Assembly (NCBI GenBank): GCA_007130045.1
Contig: SLTG01000044.1
Coordinates: 1 to 62,690, forward strand
Direction: 5' to 3'
Source of the DNA: Opitutales bacterium
GTDB lineage: Bacteria; Verrucomicrobiota; Verrucomicrobiia; Opitutales; T3Sed10-336
DNA: 62,690 bases
The translations under genes and the position numbers were made by a program. Position 1 is the first letter of the stretch. Each line of letters opens with the position of its first letter. A model generated the notes under the pieces. That model had not been told where the DNA came from. It worked only from the letters and a program-made list of their open reading frames with translations, and made no database searches. Shown here in pieces: positions 2,714 to 14,899 of the stretch.

Positions 2714-4432
2714 TCAGAGGCTCGCGAAAACAACCACGACGATGACGAGGAGGGTCAAACCCACGCTCGTTCCGAGCGGGAAGCGGTCGGCTTCGGGATG
2801 GAAATATTCGCCGCTGTTCCGGTTGATCCGCAGCGTCCTCAGGGGATTCCTGAATAATGGCACGATCCGGGAAATCAACCGGTCAAGGCCGGCTTCACAG
2901 GCGCTGAAGAAACGATTCACCCCGCCCAGAACCACCATTCCGACCCCGGGTGCCGGCGTCCTGTAGAGCCAATCCGTGTCGAGGACTATCTTCGCTTCGC
3001 CCAGGATCTTGTGACGCACAAACCAGAAGACAACAAATGTTCCCAACGGTAGCTGGAGCGCCTTGACGACCAATCCCGTCCGGTAGGCGAAGAAATCCTC
3101 CGGATAAGGCAATTGTGCGTACTGAAGATACGGGTACACACCGTACGCAACACACACAACCGCCAGGATCCCCATCGCGAGCACCATATTTCCCGGCGCC
3201 CTCCGTGTTGTTTCCGGTTCCCGCTGGGTATTTCTGTAAAACCAGGTGTAATAGGGCAGCTTGATGCCGACGCTGAGAAACGTTCCGACCGACGCCAGCG
3301 CCAAAAGGTAATACGCAAGCTCACGCCCGTACACGGCCTCCATCACCATGCTCTTGCTGACGAACCCGTTGAACAGCGGAAAACCGGAAATCGCCGCGGC
3401 TCCCACGAGGTACAGGACAACGACCCACGGCATGCGGCGGGCCAGCCCGCCCAGGTGAGTCAGGCGGGTCTCGTTCACCATGAACAAAACCGCCCCGGCG
3501 CCCATGAACATAAGGGTCTTGTAGAGAATATTATTGTACGCGTGAGCTGCGGCCGCGTTCAGGGCAAACTCCCCGCCGATCCCGATCGCCGCCACCATGT
3601 ACCCCACCTGGCTGATGATGTGGTAGGCGAGGATCAGGCGTATGTCGTTCGCCATGACGGCGTAGGAAACCGCGTAAAGGGCCATGATCAGGCCACAAAC
3701 CACCAGGACTTCCCAGCCCGGAAAGCATACCGCCAGCATGTAAACGGCGGTCTTTGTCGTAAAGGCATTGAGGAATATACTTCCGGTGACGGTGGACTTA
3801 GGATAACTGTCGGGAAGCCATGCGTGCAGGCCGGGCATCCCGGCGTTCACCAGAGCGCCGAGCAGAATGAGTATTTTTCCGGCCGATACGTCTTCAGAGA
3901 ACGCCCGAACGGTCAGGTCTCCCGTCGCGTAAAATTCCATGACGATGCCCGCAAGCAACAGGCTGCCGCCAAGAAGGTGAAAAATCAGATACCGGAAGCC
4001 GGCCATGCCCGCCTCCCGGGTGCCGCCCGCCCAAACCAGAAAAGCGGATGCCACCGCCATCAGCTCCCAGAAGACGAGAACCGTGAAGAAGTCGCCCGCA
4101 AAGACCACGCCAAGCGCGCCACCCGCATACAGCATTGCCGCGAGTTGTTGTTTCAACTCCCGCATATGCCACGCGTAAACCCCCGCGACCGACGCGACCA
4201 GAGTAAAGGCAATCCCGAAAACTTTCCCCATGCCGGTCTCCCGGAGCAGGAGCAACTCGTAACTCAAAAACGAAATCCGGAGTTCGGCCCCCTCGGGAAG
4301 CATCGAAATATGCGCAAAAGCCAACGCGGGAAAAAGCACACAGGCACCCGCCCGCCAGGAAGCCGGCAGGATCGGCAGAAGCGCGGCCCCCAGGAGGAAG
4401 AACAGGACAGGAGGAAACTCAAGTCCGTTCAT
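2714..4432 (-). CDS. Mrp/Mnh antiporter-like subunit D, third copy (NuoL/M/N family)
   Basis: 572 residues with some 14 membrane helices, a proton-conducting antiporter-type subunit related to MrpD and complex I NuoL/M/N. Ion-path residues are visible: the Glu in VFWELMAVAS (TM5) and the Lys in NAFTTKTAVYML (TM7-8), with LHAWLPDSYP between them. The C-terminus carries an extra soluble stretch and a last hydrophobic helix, making it longer than the other two copies. It is the last gene of the operon and overlaps the 65-residue gene upstream by 14 bases. Exact ion specificity cannot be read from the sequence. Confidence 0.88.
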   Translation of the reverse strand: MNGLEFPPVLFFLLGAALLPILPASWRAGACVLFPALAFAHISMLPEGAELRISFLSYELLLLRETGMGKVFGIAFTLVASVAGVYAWHMRELKQQLAAMLYAGGALGVVFAGDFFTVLVFWELMAVASAFLVWAGGTREAGMAGFRYLIFHLLGGSLLLAGIVMEFYATGDLTVRAFSEDVSAGKILILLGALVNAGMPGLHAWLPDSYPKSTVTGSIFLNAFTTKTAVYMLAVCFPGWEVLVVCGLIMALYAVSYAVMANDIRLILAYHIISQVGYMVAAIGIGGEFALNAAAAHAYNNILYKTLMFMGAGAVLFMVNETRLTHLGGLARRMPWVVVLYLVGAAAISGFPLFNGFVSKSMVMEAVYGRELAYYLLALASVGTFLSVGIKLPYYTWFYRNTQREPETTRRAPGNMVLAMGILAVVCVAYGVYPYLQYAQLPYPEDFFAYRTGLVVKALQLPLGTFVVFWFVRHKILGEAKIVLDTDWLYRTPAPGVGMVVLGGVNRFFSACEAGLDRLISRIVPLFRNPLRTLRINRNSGEYFHPEADRFPLGTSVGLTLLVIVVVVFASL

Positions 4433-4616
4433 AGTAGTCCTCCTTTCTTGAAAGTGTCTTTTTCGCCACGACCTTCGTTACGAACAGCATCAGCAAACAA
4501 CCCGCAACGCCGAACGCGAAATAGAATGCGGGAAACGCCTCCGAATCGTACCGGAAATGCGCCGCCGATGTAACGACCAAAACAGATGCCAACAGAGTCC
4601 AGGATTTCCAGTTCAT
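4419..4616 (-). CDS. Small two-helix membrane protein of the antiporter operon
   Basis: 65 residues. Helix one is WTLLASVLVVTSAA, then a short loop HFRYDSEAFP, helix two YFAFGVAGCLLMLFVTKVV, and a charged tail with LSRKEDYYE. It sits between two antiporter-like subunits and overlaps the downstream one by 14 bases, so it is translated with the complex. I believe similar short genes accompany other clusters of this type, but I know no assigned function. A structural helix pair linking two antiporter subunits is a reasonable guess. Confidence 0.75.
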   Translation of the reverse strand: MNWKSWTLLASVLVVTSAAHFRYDSEAFPAFYFAFGVAGCLLMLFVTKVVAKKTLSRKEDYYERT

Positions 4617-4643: not shown

Positions 4644-6134
4644 TCACCTCAATACCGCGTCCACCGTCGCGGTCGCCAGATCGAACAAACCGAAAAACAG
4701 GTTTGGGAAAAGGCAGAAAACAACGGACAGGGCCGCGGTAATACAGAGCGGAACCACCATGAAGGGGTTTGCCTCCCCCAGCCCCTCGAATTTTTCGGAA
4801 GTCCGGAAGAATCCCCGGTAAACCACGGGAAACAGATAAGCCGCGTTGAGCAGTCCGCTGGTCAGGAACACACAGAGAACAATGATTTGACCGGCATCCA
4901 GGCTCCCCATGCAGAGAAACCATTTGCTCAGGAAGCCGTTGACGGGGGGCAACCCCGTCAGACCCATCGCCCCGATTGTAAACGCGCCAAAAGTCCACGG
5001 CATGGCGCGGCCCAGCCCGTCGAGATCGGACACATTCTCCCTGTGGGCGTGAACGATAATCGCGCCGGCGCAGAAAAAAAGCGTGATCTTCATCGTCGCA
5101 TGCGTCGAAATATGGAGAATGCCCCCGGTGAACCCGTCGGCGTTGAGCAGCGCGGCTCCCATGGCGATATAGGAAAGGTGGGCCACCGTGGAATACGCCA
5201 GTCGGCGTTTCAGATTGTTCTGCCTCAGTGCAATCACCGAGGCCAGGATGATGGTCGCCCCGGCAAACACCGCAAGGATCGTATTCAGATCGTACGCGAC
5301 CATCACGTCGGGCCCGAACACGAAACCGACCATCCGCACGACCCCGAAAACACCGGACTTCACGACGGCCACGGCGTGCAACAGGGCGCTGACCGGCGTC
5401 GGCGCCACCATTGCGTTCGGCAGCCAACTGTGCAGGGGCATGATCCCGCCTTTGACACCGACGCCGATCAGCAGCATAAAAAACAACACCCGCATCCCGC
5501 CGGCGCCCAACATTCCCTCTTCGAGTATACCACTTGGCTCGAAATCGATCGATCCGGTCAACATGTATATCAGACCGCTCCCTGCAACCATCAGCAATCC
5601 AGCCGTCAGCGCGTAAGCGAGGTACTGCCGGCCCGCGCGAATCGCCTTCCTGTTCTCGGAATGGATTACCAGCGGGTAGGTCGCCAGGGTAAGCATCTCG
5701 TAAAACACGATAAAAGTGAGGAGATTTCCGGCAAAGGCGATGCCGATGGTCGCCGAAAGGCTGACGGCAAAACTGGCGAAATAGCGGGTCTGCTTCTTCT
5801 CGTGGTGGCCCCGCATATAGCCAATGGAGTAAAACGACGTCAGTATCCACAATCCCGACGCAATCAGCGCGAAGTACATCCCGAATGAATCCGCGCGAAG
5901 GGACAGCTCGATCCCCTCCGCGATCTCCAGGAGCACAAACTCGGCGACTTTTCCCTCAAGGGCGCCCGGCAGGAGGGTGAGGACGAGACCAAACTTGATC
6001 GCGGCAGCGAGAAGAGTCCAGAATTCCCTGAGGTTCGGTCGCTTCGACGACCACAGAATCAACGGCACCGCCAGGAGCGACACCAGCAGGGCCAGAAATG
6101 GAATGGAAGAACTGTAAGTTTCAGGCAATGACAC
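4644..6134 (-). CDS. Mrp/Mnh antiporter subunit D, second copy
   Basis: 496 residues, about 14 transmembrane helices, NuoL/M/N-type proton-conducting domain. The key Glu lies in IVFYEMLTLATYPLV and the key Lys in HAVAVVKSGVFG, preceded by MPLHSWLPNAMVAPTP. Both are the residues required for transport in MrpD. It is the second of three homologous antiporter modules in the operon, 50 bases after the first. The start has few upstream alternatives. It probably forms one of several parallel ion channels in the membrane arm. Confidence 0.9.
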   Translation of the reverse strand: MSLPETYSSSIPFLALLVSLLAVPLILWSSKRPNLREFWTLLAAAIKFGLVLTLLPGALEGKVAEFVLLEIAEGIELSLRADSFGMYFALIASGLWILTSFYSIGYMRGHHEKKQTRYFASFAVSLSATIGIAFAGNLLTFIVFYEMLTLATYPLVIHSENRKAIRAGRQYLAYALTAGLLMVAGSGLIYMLTGSIDFEPSGILEEGMLGAGGMRVLFFMLLIGVGVKGGIMPLHSWLPNAMVAPTPVSALLHAVAVVKSGVFGVVRMVGFVFGPDVMVAYDLNTILAVFAGATIILASVIALRQNNLKRRLAYSTVAHLSYIAMGAALLNADGFTGGILHISTHATMKITLFFCAGAIIVHAHRENVSDLDGLGRAMPWTFGAFTIGAMGLTGLPPVNGFLSKWFLCMGSLDAGQIIVLCVFLTSGLLNAAYLFPVVYRGFFRTSEKFEGLGEANPFMVVPLCITAALSVVFCLFPNLFFGLFDLATATVDAVLR

Positions 6135-6184: not shown

Positions 6185-7693
6185 TCAAAGTCCGTCCGGA
6201 ATCATCGGGCGGATAAACGTAGTGACGATAAACGCGTTGGCGAGTCCGATGACCAGGAGACCGACCGCAAGAAACAGTACCGGGAACAGCATCGACCCGC
6301 GCGCCTCCTCCCGCTTCAAGGCAAGGTCCTCCTGTTCGTTCCGGTCATCGTACGGTTCGCCGTCGGTACGCAGGTAAACTTTCTCCAACACCCGGAAGAA
6401 GTAAACGATGTTCAGCAGGCTGCTGATCACTATCACGGCCAGGAAGAGGTAATTCGAGCGCTCCCACGAACCGAGGACAAGGTACCACTTGCTGAAGAAC
6501 CCCGCCGTGGGCGGAAGTCCGATCATCGAAATCGCCGAAACGGTAAAGGCGGCCATCGTCCAGGGCATTCGGATACGGTATGTCCGGTCGAACCGCGGAA
6601 TGTGCGTGTGCCGAAAACGCTCCAGGATGTTCGTGTTGACCAGGAAGAGGCACGCCTTCATCACCGCGTGGTTCAGCGTGTGCAGGACCGCCCCGATCAT
6701 TCCATAAGGCGAGGCCAGCCCCACGCCCAGGGCGATGTAGCCGACCTGCGAGATGCTGCTGTAGGCGAGCATGCGTTTCAGGTCCCTCTGGGCGATCGCA
6801 AGCACCGAGCCCCAGATGATTCCCGCGGCACCAAGGAAACCTATTATGGTGGTGAGCGGGATTTCGTTTCGCACGTACTCGGGATCGAACATGTAGAAGC
6901 ACGTCCGCAACAGAACGTAAGCGGCCACCTTGGTCCCGATCGGCGCGATTATCGCCGTGCTCGTGGACGTCGCATGGGTGTACGCGTCGGAAAGCCATCC
7001 GTGCATCGGGAAAAGTGCCATCTTCAGACCGATGCCGAATACGATCAGGATCAGCCCCGCCACCGTTGCTGGCGAATCGCCCGCGATCGGAATGATTTCG
7101 GCGACGTCCCGCATATTGAGCGAACCGGTCTCCATGAAAAGAAAAGCAACCCCGAGGAGATAAAAAGAAGCTCCGATGGTCCCGAGAATGAGGTACCGAA
7201 ACGCCGAAACAGGCGCCCGCTTGTCGCCGATCGCCACCAGCGCATAACCCGCAAGAGAGCTGATCTCCAGGAAAACGTAGAGGTTGAACAGGTCCCCTGT
7301 GAGAATGATGCCCAGCAGCCCTCCGATCAGGAGAAGCGCGGTGCTGTAGAATGGAATCACCTTCTCAGGCGTCTCCCGCTCGACAACCGTCTTGCCGTGG
7401 ATGAAGACGAAGGATGCCACTCCGGCGATCACCGCACAGAAGAACGCCGAGAGCGGATCCATCACCAGTTCGATTCCCATCGGCGGCTCCCATCCGCCCA
7501 AGTGGTAATGCACCGTTCCTTCGGTTACCGCATAGATCAACCCGGCCACGGACGCGAAGAAGGCTAACCCGCACGACACAACCGCGGCGATCCACGGCAG
7601 GTTTGTCCGCCGTGCCGGGAAGAGAACCGCCACCAGGGCGCCGAAAAACGGGGGCAGGAGAACAGCCACCGCAAGATGTACCCACGGATCCAT
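6185..7693 (-). CDS. mnhD: Mrp/Mnh antiporter subunit D, first copy
   Basis: 502 residues, NuoN/M-type, with Glu143 in NLYVFLEISSLAGYAL and the Lys in IIAPIGTKVAAYVLLR. The start is the ATG at 7693, which shares its first base with the TAA stop of mnhC (TAATG), so the two are coupled. A longer frame reaching 8035 only reads through mnhC in another frame. It follows MnhC directly, as in canonical Mrp and Mbh clusters, and is therefore the true MrpD/MbhH equivalent among the three copies. Confidence 0.92.
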   Translation of the reverse strand: MDPWVHLAVAVLLPPFFGALVAVLFPARRTNLPWIAAVVSCGLAFFASVAGLIYAVTEGTVHYHLGGWEPPMGIELVMDPLSAFFCAVIAGVASFVFIHGKTVVERETPEKVIPFYSTALLLIGGLLGIILTGDLFNLYVFLEISSLAGYALVAIGDKRAPVSAFRYLILGTIGASFYLLGVAFLFMETGSLNMRDVAEIIPIAGDSPATVAGLILIVFGIGLKMALFPMHGWLSDAYTHATSTSTAIIAPIGTKVAAYVLLRTCFYMFDPEYVRNEIPLTTIIGFLGAAGIIWGSVLAIAQRDLKRMLAYSSISQVGYIALGVGLASPYGMIGAVLHTLNHAVMKACLFLVNTNILERFRHTHIPRFDRTYRIRMPWTMAAFTVSAISMIGLPPTAGFFSKWYLVLGSWERSNYLFLAVIVISSLLNIVYFFRVLEKVYLRTDGEPYDDRNEQEDLALKREEARGSMLFPVLFLAVGLLVIGLANAFIVTTFIRPMIPDGL

Positions 7694-8067
7694 TATTCGC
7701 CCTTCATCCTTTCCGTCAGTTCGCCCTCTTCGAGGGTCCCGAAATTCCGGTAAATCGCGATGAGGAGCGCAAAGGCCACGCCGACGATCGCCACACCGAC
7801 CACGATCGCGGTCAGCATCAGCGCGTGCGGCAGCGGATTGAGATAGTTCGAAGAAACATCTCCCGGAATACCCTCCTTCAACACCGGCACCGTTGCGTCC
7901 CACTTGAAGGCGGCGGTGACAAACAGGAGTATGATGGAATTCTGAAATACGATCATACCGATCACCTTTTTCATCAGGTTCTTCTTCATCAGCATCCCGT
8001 AAAGTCCGACGACGAGAAGCAACATGATCGCCCAATAAGCGTAGTAATCGTGTATTAAATCAATCAT
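7693..8067 (-). CDS. mnhC: Na+/H+ antiporter subunit C (MrpC/NuoK-like)
   Basis: 124 residues with three hydrophobic helices (about 12-28, 37-55 and 82-108), the NuoK-like fold. The segment MKKNLMKKVIGMIVFQNSIILLFV matches the family core, in which Mrp C subunits contact D. The stop overlaps the next gene by one base. It lies between MnhB and MnhD in the usual order. The protein ends with an acidic cytoplasmic tail. Confidence 0.9.
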   Translation of the reverse strand: MIDLIHDYYAYWAIMLLLVVGLYGMLMKKNLMKKVIGMIVFQNSIILLFVTAAFKWDATVPVLKEGIPGDVSSNYLNPLPHALMLTAIVVGVAIVGVAFALLIAIYRNFGTLEEGELTERMKGE

Positions 8068-8122: not shown

Positions 8123-8611
8123 TCACGGCCTCTTTAAGTCCTCGGCGGGTTTCCCCGCATCGACGTCACCGTTTTCCGGAGACGGGTCGTCAAGCATGTC
8201 GTCGAAAATGGCCACCAGGGCGGTCATCACGGCAAGACCGATACCGAATTCCACCAGCAGGATGCCGTAATAGCGCACCATGGGTTCCTCAATGCCCGGG
8301 ACCGGAACGACGCCGTAGTCCATGTAATGGCCCCCGAACGCGAGCGTGACAAGACCGGTCCCCGCAAAAATGAGCGCCCCGATCGACGCGACAGGAATGG
8401 CCGCCTCGGTTGAAATCTCGCTCTGGGCCGCGCACCGCCCCTCGGTCATGCGAAGCAGAATAACGCCGGCGGCAAGGAGCGCGCCGCCTTGAAATCCGCC
8501 TCCAGGACTGTAGTGCCCATGGATGATCACGTAGATGCCGAAAAGCTGGATCAAGGGGGCGAGGGCACGGCCGGCGACAATGATAATCACGCTCTGGGAA
8601 GGACTAGTCAT
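8123..8611 (-). CDS. mnhB: Na+/H+ antiporter subunit B (MnhB domain)
   Basis: 162 residues. It has four helices with the MnhB hallmarks HGHYSPGGGFQGGALLAAGVIL near residues 32-53 and EFGIGLAVMTALVAIFD near the end. The C-terminal tail (DDPSPENGDVDAGKP) is acidic and soluble. It overlaps the MbhE-like gene upstream by eight bases, so translation is probably coupled. It would be equivalent to MbhF in the archaeal hydrogenase order. Confidence 0.9.
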   Translation of the reverse strand: MTSPSQSVIIIVAGRALAPLIQLFGIYVIIHGHYSPGGGFQGGALLAAGVILLRMTEGRCAAQSEISTEAAIPVASIGALIFAGTGLVTLAFGGHYMDYGVVPVPGIEEPMVRYYGILLVEFGIGLAVMTALVAIFDDMLDDPSPENGDVDAGKPAEDLKRP

Positions 8612-8906
8612 ACCGCCTCCTTCTTCTCAAAATCAGAAAACACGACACGCCGGCGGTGAACACGACAATCACTTCGCCGAGCGTATCCACGCTGCGGTAG
8701 TCGGCGAGGACTACGGTCACCATGTTGGGGGTGGCGGCGTCGCGGTAGGCGTTCCTGACGAAATAATCGCCGGCCACCAGTCCTCCGGCCCGGTTCCGTT
8801 CGCGGTGCATCGGCGCGTCCGGGTCGCCGCGCGCCGGCAGGTGCAGTGTCGCATGAATCAGCAGCCCCGCAAAAACCAGCAGCAATATGTAATTAAAGAT
8901 CTTAAT
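8604..8906 (-). CDS. MbhE-like subunit (MrpA C-terminal domain as a separate gene), probable ATT start
   Basis: About 100 residues: helix KIFNYILLLVFAGLLIHATL, then a periplasmic loop ending in MVTVVLADYRSVDTLGEVIVVFTAG, the signature of the MbhE domain that closes long MrpA proteins. No ATG or GTG fits. The longer ATG-initiated frame to 9005 overlaps 100 bases of mbhD and adds unrelated residues. An ATT at 8904-8906 overlaps the mbhD stop (GATTAA) and has CGGAGG seven bases upstream, so I choose it. TTG at 8883-8885 is the alternative. Function by family: lateral helix and loop joining antiporter modules. Confidence 0.8.
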   Translation of the reverse strand: MKIFNYILLLVFAGLLIHATLHLPARGDPDAPMHRERNRAGGLVAGDYFVRNAYRDAATPNMVTVVLADYRSVDTLGEVIVVFTAGVSCFLILRRRRRYD

Positions 8907-9147
8907 CCCGAGTCCTCCGTGAAGTTTGAGAAACGGCGGCGATGAAGTAGACCCCGACGATGCCCGCGCCGACCACCGCCTCGGTGAATCCGACATCGAT
9001 CGCACCCATTGAGATAAACAGCAGCGCCATGGTCAATGTGAACGCCGTTGCGGCCGCCGCGGCCGCCAGGAGGTCCTTCACGGACAACGCGAGAAATGCG
9101 GTCGTCAGCAGAAGCAGGTACAGCACTATTTCGATCAACCAGTTCAT
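8902..9147 (-). CDS. MbhD-like subunit (DUF4040, MrpA C-terminal domain as a separate gene)
   Basis: 81 residues with three short helices: VLYLLLLTTAFLALSV, AAAAATAFTLTMALLFISM, and FTEAVVGAGIVGVYFIAAV. The DVGFTEAVVGAG motif is typical of the MbhD domain, which in standard Mrp systems is part of the large MrpA subunit but stands alone in membrane-bound hydrogenases. It overlaps mnhG by four bases at its start. Its stop overlaps the ATT start proposed for the next gene. Confidence 0.88.
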   Translation of the reverse strand: MNWLIEIVLYLLLLTTAFLALSVKDLLAAAAAATAFTLTMALLFISMGAIDVGFTEAVVGAGIVGVYFIAAVSQTSRRTRD

Positions 9148-9473
9148 TTCCCATTCGTTTCAGCACGTTCTTCCTTCCGCCACGGACGATCACCTCGGAG
9201 CCAGGCGGCCCGCGCGAGCGCGTGTACCGCTACGGGGTTCGCCAGCATGATGAACGCAATGGCGATGAGCAGCTTGGCCATGGCCAGAGACACCCCTTCG
9301 ATGACCACCAGACCGAGCAAAAGGAAAATAATTCCTGTTGTGTCCACCTTGCTGGCGGCGTGGGTGCGGCTGAAGAAATCCGGCAGACGAAGGATGCCGA
9401 TGCTTCCCACCAGCATGATCAGCAATCCCACAACGATCAAGCCCACCGAAACGGCAATCTGCAACAGGCTCAT
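9144..9473 (-). CDS. mnhG: Na+/H+ antiporter subunit G
   Basis: 109 residues, three helices. The family core GSIGILRLPDFFSRTHAASK (about 26-45) is well kept and is followed by DTTGIIFLLLGLVVIEG. The start is the ATG at 9473, which overlaps the mnhF stop by four bases; the longer frame upstream is mnhF read out of frame. The C-terminal tail is charged. It is an accessory membrane subunit of the Mrp complex, homologous to MbhC. Confidence 0.92.
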   Translation of the reverse strand: MSLLQIAVSVGLIVVGLLIMLVGSIGILRLPDFFSRTHAASKVDTTGIIFLLLGLVVIEGVSLAMAKLLIAIAFIMLANPVAVHALARAAWLRGDRPWRKEERAETNGK

Positions 9474-9742
9474 GATGACGCCTCCCTTTCCCTGCGAAAG
9501 TACTTGGCGACTGCGATGCCCGCGATGAAGTTCAGCACGGCATAAGCGAGGGCGATATCCGCGAACATGTCGAATCTGCCGTAAAGGAATCCGAACATGC
9601 AAACCAGCCCGATGGTCTTTGCCCCCATCGCCCCGATCGCGAGCAACCGATCAAAAACGGTGGGGCCGCGAACCACCCGGTAAAACGGCAGGAGAATGAT
9701 TCCGACAAGCGCAATCGTAGCGACCGTAAAGAAGATCTCCAT
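9470..9742 (-). CDS. mnhF: Na+/H+ antiporter subunit F
   Basis: 90 residues with three hydrophobic helices. The signature FYRVVRGPTVFDRLLAIGAMG (about 20-40) is the MrpF hallmark. The sequence ends with a basic cytosolic tail KYFRREREASS. It lies two bases after mnhE and overlaps mnhG, matching the E-F-G order found in all Mrp and Mbh modules. Confidence 0.92.
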   Translation of the reverse strand: MEIFFTVATIALVGIILLPFYRVVRGPTVFDRLLAIGAMGAKTIGLVCMFGFLYGRFDMFADIALAYAVLNFIAGIAVAKYFRREREASS

Positions 9743-9744
9743 AT

Positions 9745-10326
9745 TTAATCGTCCTCGAATTCCGCAAGTCTCTTCCCGTCGTAGGCGGCCCGTTCGCCCG
9801 AAGCGCCGAACAACCGGGCAATGTGCCGAGCGATCGCCCCCTCCAGCAACTCGTCCGCATTGCGCCCGGTCAACGCATGCACCTGGTACCGGTCGCCGTC
9901 AACCTTCAGCGACAGCGTCCCGGGCGTCAGGGTAATGGAATTCGCAAGCGTCACACGGGCCACCGAATGAGGCTGGGCGCTCTTGAACTCCACCACGCAG
10001 GGATCGAGATTCATGCGGGGTGACAGCACGATAATCGTCACCTGCCAGGTTGCCTTGATCATCTGAACCGACAGCCACGGAATATAAAACGGAAAGCGGT
10101 GAAAATGCGCGAGCAGCGACTTGTCTTTCTTCTCCTCCGCGCTGCCCGGAGAACGGTATTGAAGCCACATCACAATTCCGACCGCAATCAGGCCGAACCC
10201 GATGTGGAGCGCGTCGTATTTTCCGCTCATAACCAGCCAGAATAGCAGCAGGATCGCCGCTTCGCCCCAAAAAAAGCCCCGGCTCACACTCGTTTTCGAT
10301 GAATTACCTGACGGATCGTTCGACAT
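9745..10326 (-). CDS. mnhE: Na+/H+ antiporter subunit E, first gene of the Mrp operon
   Basis: 193 residues. Two N-terminal helices (about 22-55) are followed by a cytosolic domain with SITLTPGTLSLKVDGDRYQVHALT, typical of MrpE. I chose ATG 10326 because GGAGG lies 11 bases upstream; the open frame to 10413 adds an unlikely leader. It heads an eleven-gene operon whose members are spaced by at most about 55 bases, most of them overlapping or nearly so. TTGACA occurs on this strand at 10421-10426, but I see no convincing -10 after it. Confidence 0.9.
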   Translation of the reverse strand: MSNDPSGNSSKTSVSRGFFWGEAAILLLFWLVMSGKYDALHIGFGLIAVGIVMWLQYRSPGSAEEKKDKSLLAHFHRFPFYIPWLSVQMIKATWQVTIIVLSPRMNLDPCVVEFKSAQPHSVARVTLANSITLTPGTLSLKVDGDRYQVHALTGRNADELLEGAIARHIARLFGASGERAAYDGKRLAEFEDD

Positions 10327-10538
10327 GACATTTACTTCCTCCCAATGCGGCGGAGCGTTTGAAAGTCCCCATCGCAGATCAAAGCTGTAAGGTTTCCGAG
10401 GATTTGCCTGCACAGGAGTTTGTCAACGCAAGTTCGCGCGACACGCTCGAACCCTGCCGCAAACCGACCGATTCGGGAAAATCTGTGGCTTCACGCCTGC
10501 GCGATTAACGGATCTTCGCCCGATGAATGAGACAGGCG

Positions 10539-13500
10539 TCAATTCCCGGCGAGCTCCGCCTCCTCCACTGGCACCGTTTCCGGCTGACGGTTCCGGTTGA
10601 AGAGCGTGTAAACGATCGGAATGACAAAGAGAGTGATCGCCGCGGAACTGATCAAACCGCCAATCACCGCGCGGGCGAGCGGCGCCTGAGCCTCGGCCCC
10701 TTCTCCGAGCCCCGCGGCCAGGGGGGTGAGCGCCAGAATAGTCGTCAGCGACGTCATCAGGATCGGACGCAGACGGCGGCGCCCCGCCTCGCGCGCGGCG
10801 TCTTCAGCGGACGCGCCGGCGACCTGGAGCCGGGACGCCTGGTCAACGATAAGGATGGCGTTGTTCACAACGATGCCTCCGAGCATGATCAGCCCGATGT
10901 AGGATTGCACGTTGAGGGTACTCCCGGTGAGGAAAAGCATCACGATCGCCCCGATCGCAGCCAGTGGCACGGAGAACATCACGACCAGGGGGTTGCGCAA
11001 CGATTCGTACAAGCACGCCATGACCATGTAAACGAGCAGGATTGAAAGAACGAGACTGAGCATCAACTCCCGGAAGGCTCTCTGCTGCTCCTCGTAGTCT
11101 CCACGGACGAAGATCTGGTAATTCGGCGGCAGCGGGATTCCCGAAACCGCCGCCATGATGTCTCGGCTGGCCGAGCCGAGGTCCCGGTCGGTAAAATTGA
11201 CCGCGACGTTTGCGACACGCTGCTGATTGCGCCGTTCGATCTGCGTCGGTCCGGGTTCCCGGTCGAACGTCACGAGACTCCGAAGAGCGATCTGTTCGCC
11301 GTTTTCGTTGGGAATCGTCAAATCGAGCACGTCCGTCAACTCCATGCGGTCGGCATCGCGCAGGCGCACAAGCATACGCACCTCGTCGCCGTTGTCGCGA
11401 AACTCCCCGGCCAATGTGCCGCCGATGGCGGTCCTCAGCATGCGAGCGATCCGGCCCGTTGTGAGCCCGAAATCGGCGGCCCGCTCGCGATCGATCCGCA
11501 CCAACTGGCGCGGCACGCCTTCCTGGCGGCTGATCGTGACGTCGGTCACTCCCTCGACGCCCTCGACCGCAAGGCTGACCTGTTCGGTCAGAGCGTCGAG
11601 CGTATTGAGATCGAACCCGGTTATCTCCACGCCGAGCCGGTCGGCATCGTCACCGCCTCCAGTAGCCATCCGTAGAAGGAAGAGCCCGCGCCCGGGACTG
11701 GTCCGGATATCCACACCCGCGATATCGCGCAGCTTCTCCCTGAGATCGTCGGCGATTTCTTCGCTGGAACGGGTGCGTTGCGAAAGAGGCACGAGATAGG
11801 CGCGGACATCGCCTCGCGCCTTCGAGGTCGGCCTCCACCAGGACGAACCGACCCTCACCTCGATATTATCGATCTCGGGCACGTTTTCCACAACGATGCG
11901 CTCGATCCGCACCATCATCGCATCCATGGTCTCAATACGCGTGCCCTCGCCCATTTCGGCGTTCACACGCACCTCGCCCTCGTCGGCCTCCGGCATAAAT
12001 TCGGTGCCCAGATGAGGAATCAGGGCAAAGGTTCCGGCGAACAGCAACGCGGCCCCGCCCAGGCAGGCGGTACGGTTTCGGAAGGCCGAATCGAGCAGTT
12101 TACGGTAGCCTTCCTCCATGCGCTTGAATTGGGCGCCCGCCCATGTCAGAATGCCCCTTCCTGTTTCCGCGATCCCGCTGCGCGGCGCATCCGTCGCGGG
12201 CGGCACCCGGGCGGCCAGCATCGGAACCAGGGTCAGCGCGACGATAAGGGAGCAAAGGAGCGTGAAGCTGATGACGTAGGCGAGTTGTCTGAACATTATC
12301 CCGCTCACGCCCTCGAGGAAAACGAGTGGCAGAAAAATCGCCATGGTCGTTAGGGTGCTGGCGACGATGGCGGCGGCGACTTCCGATGAGCCCTGGTGGG
12401 CGGCTTTGTGCGGAGGGCTCCCCTTTTCGCGCAGGCGGAATATGTTCTCCAGGACGACGATCGCGTTGTCCACCATCATGCCGACTCCCAGCGCGATGCC
12501 GCCGAGCGTCATCAGGTTGAGGGTCAACCCGAGGAAATACATCAGCGAAAACGCAGCGATGACGGAGATTGGAATGGCCGTGGCGATAATCGCCGTGCTG
12601 CGGACGCTTCGAAGAAAGAACAGCAGAACGACGATCGCAAGGATCCCGCCGTAGAGAATGGAACGCGTCACGTTGGCGATCGAACGCTCGATGTACTCCG
12701 ACGTGTCTCGAATCGAGGTGAGGTGAAGCTGGGCATAGTCGGCGTTGATCCGGTCCACTTCCCGGCGCACATCCCGCACGACCTGAACCGTGTTCGTTCC
12801 GGATTGTTTACGGATGGCAAGGAGGATGCCCGGTTCGCCGTTGATGCGCGTCACCCGGGTGACTTCTCGGTGAGTATCCTGCACTTCGGCCAGTTGCGCG
12901 AGGTAAACAGGCGCGCCGTCGCGCCTCGCCACCACGATATCGCGGAGCTCGTCGAGACTGGCAAGAAGGCCGGGCGTGCGTAGGGCAACCTGAAAACGCC
13001 CCTCTTCGATCTCGCCCGCCGGCACGACGATGTTTTCCTCCCGGATTCGCTCGACTATGCTCTCGAGCGATATGCCGAGAGCGCGAATCCGCTCGGGATC
13101 CACCGTTACCCGAATTTCCCGCTCCAAGCCGCCCCATACGTCCACCGCGCCCACACCGGGAACCCTGTCGAGCCGATTCCGGATCCGGTTGTCGAGCAAC
13201 GTTCGCAGATCGATCGGATCGAGCCGGCTCGACGCCCCGAGAATGATCACCGGAAACTGGTTCGGGTCGAATTTCCTGAGTTGCGGACGGTCGGCATCCT
13301 GCGGCAGGCGATTCAGAATTCGGTCCAGGCGGTCGCGAACGTCGTTCGATGCTTCGTCGAGGTTCGTTCCCCAGACAAACGAAAGGGTGACCTGACTGTT
13401 GCCTTCAAGGGAATTCGAGAAAATCTCCTCCACCCCCGGCACGGCCGCGACAGCCTCCTCCACCGGCCGGGTAATCAACTGTTCGATTTCCTCGGGGCTC

Positions 13501-13661
13501 GCGTTCTCGTAGCTCGTGGCCACGGTCAGGCGCGGAAACTCGACCTCCGGGATCAGGTCGATCGGAAGACGGGAAACCGAAATCGCACCGACAAGAATCA
13601 CGATCAGCGCGACCATGACGGTGAATACCGGCCGGTTGATACTGAAGGAGGACAGGTTCAT
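10539..13661 (-). CDS. RND efflux pump inner-membrane transporter (AcrB/HAE1-like)
   Basis: 1040 residues, the full RND length. The N-terminal helix [20 protein letters not shown], two large periplasmic loops and twelve helices are apparent. In TM4 the relay segment reads [14 protein letters not shown], with one Asp where AcrB has two, as in many HAE1-type pumps. It overlaps the adaptor gene by four bases and would form a tripartite pump with it and an outer-membrane channel encoded elsewhere. The C-terminus ends in a short charged cytosolic tail. Substrate cannot be predicted. Confidence 0.93.
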
Positions 13662-14899
13662 CGGACCTCCGCGCGCTCTTCGATCTCGACTTGCGTCAAA
13701 CCGGGATCACCGGATTCACGGGGTTCCCGGCGGCCAACGATGTTCACGCGGACCCCGTCGGTCAACTGGTCCTGACCCAGCACGACAACGTCCCCTTCGA
13801 GATGCGGCTCCAGGATCTGCACCAATTGGCCTTCGATAAAACCGGGCCGCACCGTGTAAAACCGAGCCGTTTCACCGTCTTCCCCGCCCTCGATAACAAA
13901 CAATCCCTGTTCGCCCTCCCGCCGCACGAGCGCGCTGCGCGGCGCAATGACCGCATTCTCCGCACGGTCGAGCTCCATCCGGACTCGGACGAATTGTCCC
14001 GGCATAAGGCGCTCATCGGGATTGGAAACGTCCAGCTCGACGCGCGCCTGCCTCGACGTTTCGCGGAATTGCGGCGCCCGCCGCATCACTCTCGCGTCGA
14101 ATGTTTCGCCCGTAAGGGAATCCGTGGCGACCAGGCCCGGCTGGTCGATCCGGATTCGCTCGTAATCCCGTTCGGTCACCTGGATCACCGCGCGCAACCG
14201 TTGAAGATCAACAAGCGAAATAATCCGGTCGCCGGGCGCCAGTGTGGTGCCTTCTTCGACGTAGCGTTCGCCGACGACGCGAATGTCCCCCTCCCCCTCC
14301 CAACGGGCGTCGACCTCGGTGTAGGACAAACGGAGTCGCGCGGCGCGCAGGCCGGCGTCGCGTTGCAGGATCGTCGCTTCGGCCACGCGAACACGCGAGC
14401 GCTCGGCCTGAACGGCGGCTTCGGACGCTTCAAGGTCGGACATGGACACCACCCGTCGCTCCCGCAGCGCTTCCACCCGGTCGCGCTCCCGTTCGGCCAA
14501 CTCCAGCGAACTTCGCGCCTCCTCCAGATTGGCGCGGGCGACTTCCAGCTCGGCTTCGGCCTGGGCCACGTCCTGAAGGAACTCCTCGTCGTCGATCCGC
14601 GCGATCACGTCCCCGCGTTCAACGACGTCACCGATGTCAACCGCCAAGCGGGAAAGCCGGCCTCCGACCTTCGCAACGACGTCGAAATTGGAACGTGAGG
14701 ACAACGACCCCGTAAAGGTCCGCAGGTCCCGGATGGCTCCCGTCTCAAGCGGTGCCACCTCAACCGCCACCACGCTTCCGCCCGTCCGCGGTCCCGAATC
14801 CATCCCGTCTTCGGTGAACCGATGGTAAAACAGAGCCGCGAGGGCGAGAGCGAGCGCCCCCCCGAAAACAATCATCAACATCCTCCGTGTCCGCTGCAT
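13658..14899 (-). CDS. RND efflux periplasmic adaptor (HlyD/AcrA family)
   Basis: 413 residues. An N-terminal membrane anchor (about 7-24) is followed by a lipoyl half-motif, an alpha-hairpin coiled coil (about 112-190, rich in EAELEVARANLEEA-type heptads), the second lipoyl half and a beta-barrel domain with LVRREGEQGLFVIEGG. It links the transporter encoded next to an outer-membrane duct. GGAAAGG five bases before the ATG is a good ribosome site. It starts an operon with the transporter; no regulator gene lies beside it. Confidence 0.92.
   Translation of the reverse strand: MQRTRRMLMIVFGGALALALAALFYHRFTEDGMDSGPRTGGSVVAVEVAPLETGAIRDLRTFTGSLSSRSNFDVVAKVGGRLSRLAVDIGDVVERGDVIARIDDEEFLQDVAQAEAELEVARANLEEARSSLELAERERDRVEALRERRVVSMSDLEASEAAVQAERSRVRVAEATILQRDAGLRAARLRLSYTEVDARWEGEGDIRVVGERYVEEGTTLAPGDRIISLVDLQRLRAVIQVTERDYERIRIDQPGLVATDSLTGETFDARVMRRAPQFRETSRQARVELDVSNPDERLMPGQFVRVRMELDRAENAVIAPRSALVRREGEQGLFVIEGGEDGETARFYTVRPGFIEGQLVQILEPHLEGDVVVLGQDQLTDGVRVNIVGRREPRESGDPGLTQVEIEERAEVR

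Follow-up and report, generated by a model that had tools for sequence, protein, structure and literature searches.

The ATT at the start of mbhE in an Opitutales Mrp-type antiporter cluster is very probably what remains of a TTG start after the loss of one base

The window, by which we mean the whole 62,690-nucleotide stretch of Opitutales DNA analysed here, comes from a genome assembly of 146 contigs and 3.41 Mb. Its closest named records in a genome-contig scan were Opitutales, Opitutia and Verrucomicrobia MAGs. The minus strand carries an Mrp-type cluster in the order mrpE, mrpF, mrpG, mbhD, mbhE, mbhF (MnhB) and mrpC, followed by three large antiporter-like subunits (Table 1). Several neighbouring genes overlap. 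The mrpG ATG at 9473 overlaps the mrpF stop and the mrpG stop overlaps the mbhD start, in both cases as ATGA, whereas mbhF starts 8 bases before the end of mbhE and the ATG at 7693 of the adjoining large subunit overlaps the mrpC stop (TAATG). MbhD and MbhE of the window fall into the same families, PF13244 and PF20501, as those of Mrp-type antiporters and of the MBH hydrogenase. A 65-residue ORF between two of the antiporter-like subunits (4419-4616, minus strand) has no Pfam match, but five relatives have ORFs that share 44-64% identity with it; it is perhaps an undescribed small subunit. Directly upstream of the cluster lie an RND efflux pump of the AcrB family and an HlyD-like adaptor (10539-14899, minus strand), and similar pump and adaptor ORFs occupy the same position in G001 and G002, two genomes of the same genus.

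Table 1. Genes of the Mrp-type cluster and elements of the mbhD/mbhE junction, in window coordinates.
Feature	Position	Strand	Remarks
Antiporter-like large subunit	2714..4432	-	PF00361, E 2.2e-37
Antiporter-like large subunit	4644..6134	-	PF00361/PF00662, E 3.8e-60
Antiporter-like large subunit	6185..7693	-	PF00361, E 2.3e-59 (scan from 7690, leaving out the ATG)
mrpC (NuoK-like)	7693..8067	-	PF00420, E 3.2e-20
mbhF/mnhB, ATG start	8123..8611	-	PF04039, E 2.3e-25; GGAGG 4 bases upstream
mbhE, 100 codons from ATT plus stop	8604..8906	-	PF20501, E 7.9e-12; D74 and E78 kept
Next in-frame standard start, TTG	8883-8885	-	A start here would give 7 residues fewer
TAA, mbhD stop	8902-8904	-	Shares one T with ATT, giving the 5-base overlap ATTAA; TGA in close relatives
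Site of the G missing relative to close relatives	between 8903 and 8904	-	MAFFT alignment with L002-L005 and L031
ATT, presumed mbhE start codon	8904-8906	-	TTG in close relatives
Shine-Dalgarno sequence GGAGG	8914-8918	-	7 bases to ATT; 8 to TTG in L003 and L005
mbhD (MbhD family)	8902..9147	-	ORF of 81 aa; PF13244, E 1.9e-12
mrpG	9144..9473	-	PF03334, E 8.6e-25 (scan from 9470, leaving out the ATG)
mrpF	9470..9742	-	PF04066, E 1.2e-12
mrpE	9745..10413	-	PF01899, E 1.8e-28; start from the ORF list, the true one may be further in

The assignment of MbhE rests on a PF20501 match of 45.5 bits against a cut-off of 27. Because this match spans only residues 46-97 of 100, the start of the gene was placed by its relatives and not by Pfam. 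The MbhE profile aligned to residues 763-809 of 6z16_A, and counting along the alignment puts D74 and E78 on D792 and E796 of MrpA, two carboxylates that are called essential for activity in PMC7419157. Both residues are invariant in 18 alignment rows. The dN/dS of mbhE ranges from 0.080 to 0.126 between the window and four relatives and from 0.081 to 0.190 among those relatives, ratios in which a recent change would not show, dS being near saturation. MbhE thus appears free of decay and under normal purifying selection.

On the minus strand, mbhD ends with CGG GAT TAA, and the ATT that shares its T with this stop opens the mbhE frame. What a sequence-only reading of the junction had described held in every detail checked: an ATT overlapping the mbhD stop, a Shine-Dalgarno sequence seven bases upstream and no ATG or GTG where the family begins. 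Upstream of the ATT, the mbhE frame extends without a stop to a GTG at 9005; both this GTG and an ATG at 8996-8994 lie within mbhD. Between that ATG and the TTG at 8885-8883, the frame contains no ATG, GTG, TTG or CTG. In the four relatives checked, the counterpart of the part reaching up to GTG 9005 is read out of frame; therefore, a 133-residue MbhE called from this GTG is probably wrong.

Junctions for comparison were taken from homologues, found by searching the genomes of relatives, and from related loci in genome contigs. Seven relatives at genus or family level were searched; six of them contained mbhE, and the seventh (G006, 67% complete) gave no match. In two genomes of the same genus (G001, G002) and two of the same family (G003, G004), mbhD ends with GAT TGA and TTG is the first codon of the mbhE frame. 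TTG also stands at the junction of G005 and G007, where an ATG comes immediately after it. When the DNA of the window was aligned by MAFFT with L002-L005 and L031, a single gap appeared in the window, exactly at the junction, and no other through mbhD and most of mbhE. The window reads GATT-AAG as compared to GATTGAAA, GATTGAGG, GATTGAAA and GATTGAGA, and the four closest sequences (G001-G004) have ATTGA where it reads ATT-A. A single change, one missing base, thus separates the start region of the window from that of its relatives, and we found no evidence against this difference itself. The genome-contig scan, used to look for a second source of the same species, yielded relatives, none of them with the junction of the window; no relative was found in the viral-contig scan, and neither scan gave an independent sequence of the species. 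The stop/start overlap and the Shine-Dalgarno sequence are common to the window and its close relatives, but the ATT is not. Since the close relatives have both, the combination of overlap and Shine-Dalgarno sequence appears to be more than chance.

The wider survey drew on 73 sequences (the window and L001-L073 without L043), 50 of which had a match to mbhD. After removal of 8 duplicates, 42 distinct junctions remained: that of the window, four in which MbhD runs on as a fusion or similar (L036, L037, L042, L051) and 37 others. The 23 sequences without a match to the MbhD of the window were left out (18 in open frames of at least 750 codons; L052, L055, L057, L064 and L068 in shorter ones), so that these counts may lack a small number of unfused, more divergent junctions. 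Conservation of the ATT in relatives, which the sequence-only reading had named as a check, was not borne out: none of the 37 other unfused junctions depends on ATT and none lacks a standard start. TTG in the four-base overlap TTGA is found in 25 of them, including all six genus or family relatives with mbhE, and ATG in the remaining 12, where it lies in an ATGA overlap (3), in a one-base overlap (7) or after the stop (2). Four of the TTG junctions (L006, L007, L018, L035) have an ATG one to three codons further on that may be the true start, and four of the ATG junctions (L015, L016, L058, L066) also have a CTG one codon earlier. From its position we infer that TTG is the start used by the relatives.

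The frequency of TTG follows from the neighbouring gene. At 29 of the 37 other unfused junctions, the last residue of MbhD is Asp. As the last base of the final mbhD codon is the first base of the mbhE start in a four-base overlap, a terminal GAT forces TTG. Accordingly, all 25 of the 28 four-base overlaps with terminal GAT have TTG, and the three with another terminal residue have ATG. Within such overlaps, the mbhE start codon is therefore fixed by a simple rule, namely the last residue of the neighbour.

The relatives' TTGA is an ordinary four-base overlap, comparable to the ATGA at mrpF/mrpG and mrpG/mbhD of the window. As is typical of stop/start overlaps (ATGA, TGATG), the neighbours encode two subunits of one complex. 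It is in this start/stop junction that mbhD/mbhE of the window differs from its close relatives, as its ATTAA is a five-base overlap. According to PMC10666635, overlaps of five bases are more than 1000-fold rarer than those of four. They seem to be ruled out by start codons ending in G, ATTAA being one of three forms that ATT permits, and are attributed to misannotation and/or rare non-canonical start codons (PMC10666635). Among the papers listed in searches on AUU starts, MbhD/MbhE and stop/start overlaps, none was seen to mention the mbhD/mbhE junction, which is not proof of absence.

Free energies of the Shine-Dalgarno duplex were calculated with an anti-Shine-Dalgarno tail whose sequence we presumed. 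The window and L003 share a value of −9.5 kcal/mol, and L002, L005 and L004 reach −10.9, −11.4 and −5.9 kcal/mol, respectively. Since no 16S rRNA gene was found in the assembly of the window itself (2 of the 12 genomes searched gave a match), the anti-Shine-Dalgarno sequence was read from L223, a genome of the same family, whose 16S tail contains CCTCC. No compensating strengthening of the Shine-Dalgarno sequence is visible in the window as compared to its relatives. As MbhE shows no decay and its Shine-Dalgarno sequence is no stronger than theirs, the loss should be either recent or a sequence error.

Taken together, the ATT is very probably the remnant of an ordinary TTG start after a one-base loss, be it real or an artefact. 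Because one base is missing inside the start codon relative to close relatives, the lost G in a conserved TTG would explain the ATT, through either recent mutation or an error in the sequence, and a purposeful ATT start finds no support. The ancestral junction most likely consisted of GGAGG, a spacer of 8 bases and a TTG in a four-base overlap with the mbhD stop TGA, an arrangement that would have coupled the synthesis of two subunits of one Mrp-type antiporter. Initiation would have taken place at UUG, aided by GGAGG and probably also by ribosomes terminating on mbhD. Loss of the G inside the start codon would have converted TGA into TAA, leaving MbhD unchanged, and TTG into ATT. With the A of GAT, the final mbhD codon, serving as the first base of the new start, the MbhE frame would have been preserved.

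Whether the base was lost in the cell or in the assembly was approached by screening the window genome for frameshifts against the ORFs of relatives. The comparison rested on a sample of the 3.41-Mb genome, namely 343 kb and the infC locus, of which 50.8 kb had a close match. At an identity of at least 65%, no frameshift was found in 50,837 compared bases, which sets an upper 95% bound of about 6-7e-5 per base; nor was one flagged in the 24,169 bases compared at another of the higher identity limits. In a control, 60 random positions were reduced to 21 with a spacing of at least 3 kb, and a deletion was counted as found if a flag appeared within 3 kb; 18 of the 21 simulated single-base deletions were detected, so some breaks are missed. 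A looser first pass gave two flags in the window, which we read as noise: their second matches are 42-45% identical and lie over the neighbouring gene in another frame. A list of the starts of further orthologues (114 positions, 21 of them non-standard) was set aside as evidence, being judged to include antisense and over-extended ORFs. The assembly is not rich in indels. In our judgement, a real deletion is mildly favoured over an error, since no frameshifts were found and the missing G lies outside any homopolymer.

A sequence or assembly error, with TTG and TGA present in the cell and the G missing only in the assembly, is nevertheless a serious possibility, although we lean somewhat against it. 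It is consistent with the presence of the G in close relatives, with the normal purifying selection on MbhE in the absence of a compensating change, and with the origin of the ATT form from one assembly of 146 contigs; the frameshift screen, its control and the sequence context of the missing base argue against it. In that case, the lesson of the junction would be that relatives deserve a look before an exotic start is proposed.

A real deletion, by contrast, would have to be recent, given the lack of decay or compensation, and would make the site a natural experiment on the extent to which coupled genes tolerate the loss of a start codon, as well as a rare case of the five-base overlap that, according to PMC10666635, standard codons exclude. 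AUU would then be the likeliest start, with reduced yield. The same Shine-Dalgarno sequence, now 7 instead of 8 bases away, would place AUU in the P site, and together with terminating ribosomes would set the initiator tRNA on it, so that a product beginning fMet-Lys-Ile-Phe... would be made at a rate far below the earlier one. Output of MbhE would fall, whereas mbhF may be less affected because it has its own GGAGG. Low initiation from AUU, as anticipated by the sequence-only reading, agrees with published work (PMC10666635, PMC13009471). The efficiency of ATT is given as about 0.3% of that of ATG, quoted from Hecht et al. 2017 (PMC10666635). Staphylococcus aureus reporters with AUU or AUA starts were expressed less than those with AUG; a figure of approximately 10%, perhaps for one of these reporters, is also given, and the AUA of ccpN reached up to 30% in rich medium (PMC13009471). 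IF3 discriminates against non-canonical codons, and its excess also lowers re-initiation without a Shine-Dalgarno sequence (PMC2268962). It is conceivable, though rather unlikely, that a deletion specific to this species converted a coupled UUG into an AUU start that works, within a five-base ATTAA overlap, rendering the subunit IF3-sensitive and limiting assembly of the complex. If so, the junction would be a rare natural example of the ATTAA overlap class.

That the AUU is instead a selected weak start, keeping MbhE low and IF3-sensitive, we regard as decidedly unlikely. Such starts are known from infC and pcnB of E. coli (PMC9410913) and cvfC1 of S. aureus (PMC13009471), and the window does carry ATT at the conserved start, 7 bases downstream of GGAGG. 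The AUU of cvfC1, however, is reported to be conserved among staphylococci together with a very strong, extended Shine-Dalgarno sequence (PMC13009471). In contrast, the ATT of mbhE occurs in one genome, recurs at none of the 37 other junctions and follows a Shine-Dalgarno sequence like those of its TTG relatives, no stronger than in L003. Moreover, making less of a single subunit would presumably bring no clear benefit when the complex is equimolar. Of the rare ATT start proposed from the sequence, the codon at a conserved site, the Shine-Dalgarno sequence and the overlap therefore stand, but not as a lasting feature of mbhE. ATG at this place in relatives had been named as a sign of sequence error; a standard start is indeed what relatives have, although in the closest ones it is TTG.

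Following a real deletion, MbhE might also restart by re-initiation at the TTG at 8885-8883, the first standard in-frame start downstream and 16 bases beyond the mbhD stop. This is very improbable, as the TTG has no Shine-Dalgarno sequence at a useful distance (the best reaches −4.1 kcal/mol at 18-19 bases), scanning by post-termination ribosomes is described as rare, if it occurs at all (PMC10666635), and the loss of seven residues would presumably shorten the first hydrophobic segment. A +1 frameshift at the overlap producing an MbhD-MbhE fusion has a negligible chance: MbhD and MbhE do share one frame in L036 and L037, MbhD runs on in L042 and L051, and Pyrococcus furiosus MrpB is described as homologous to such a fusion in PMC8415708, but a slip from GAT to ATT would find no good re-pairing in the codons CGG GAT TAA, and the 37 other junctions are separate genes with a standard start.

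Elsewhere in the window genome, a 4.4-kb stretch (L100 7076-11456; G002:C156) is 91% identical to G002, the other matches of at least 800 bases to G001 and G002 being 66-85% identical; this stretch may be recently shared or highly conserved. The infC gene was considered as a test of ATT use in the clade and rejected as having no bearing on mbhE, an ATG being present in all five sequences. It begins with ATT TTA ATG in the window genome (L043, G000:C37), L081, L082 and L084, and with ATA TTA ATG in L083. In L043, L081 and L082, a GAGG lies 11-12 bases from the ATT and 17-18 from the ATG, an arrangement in which ATT is a possible start for infC.
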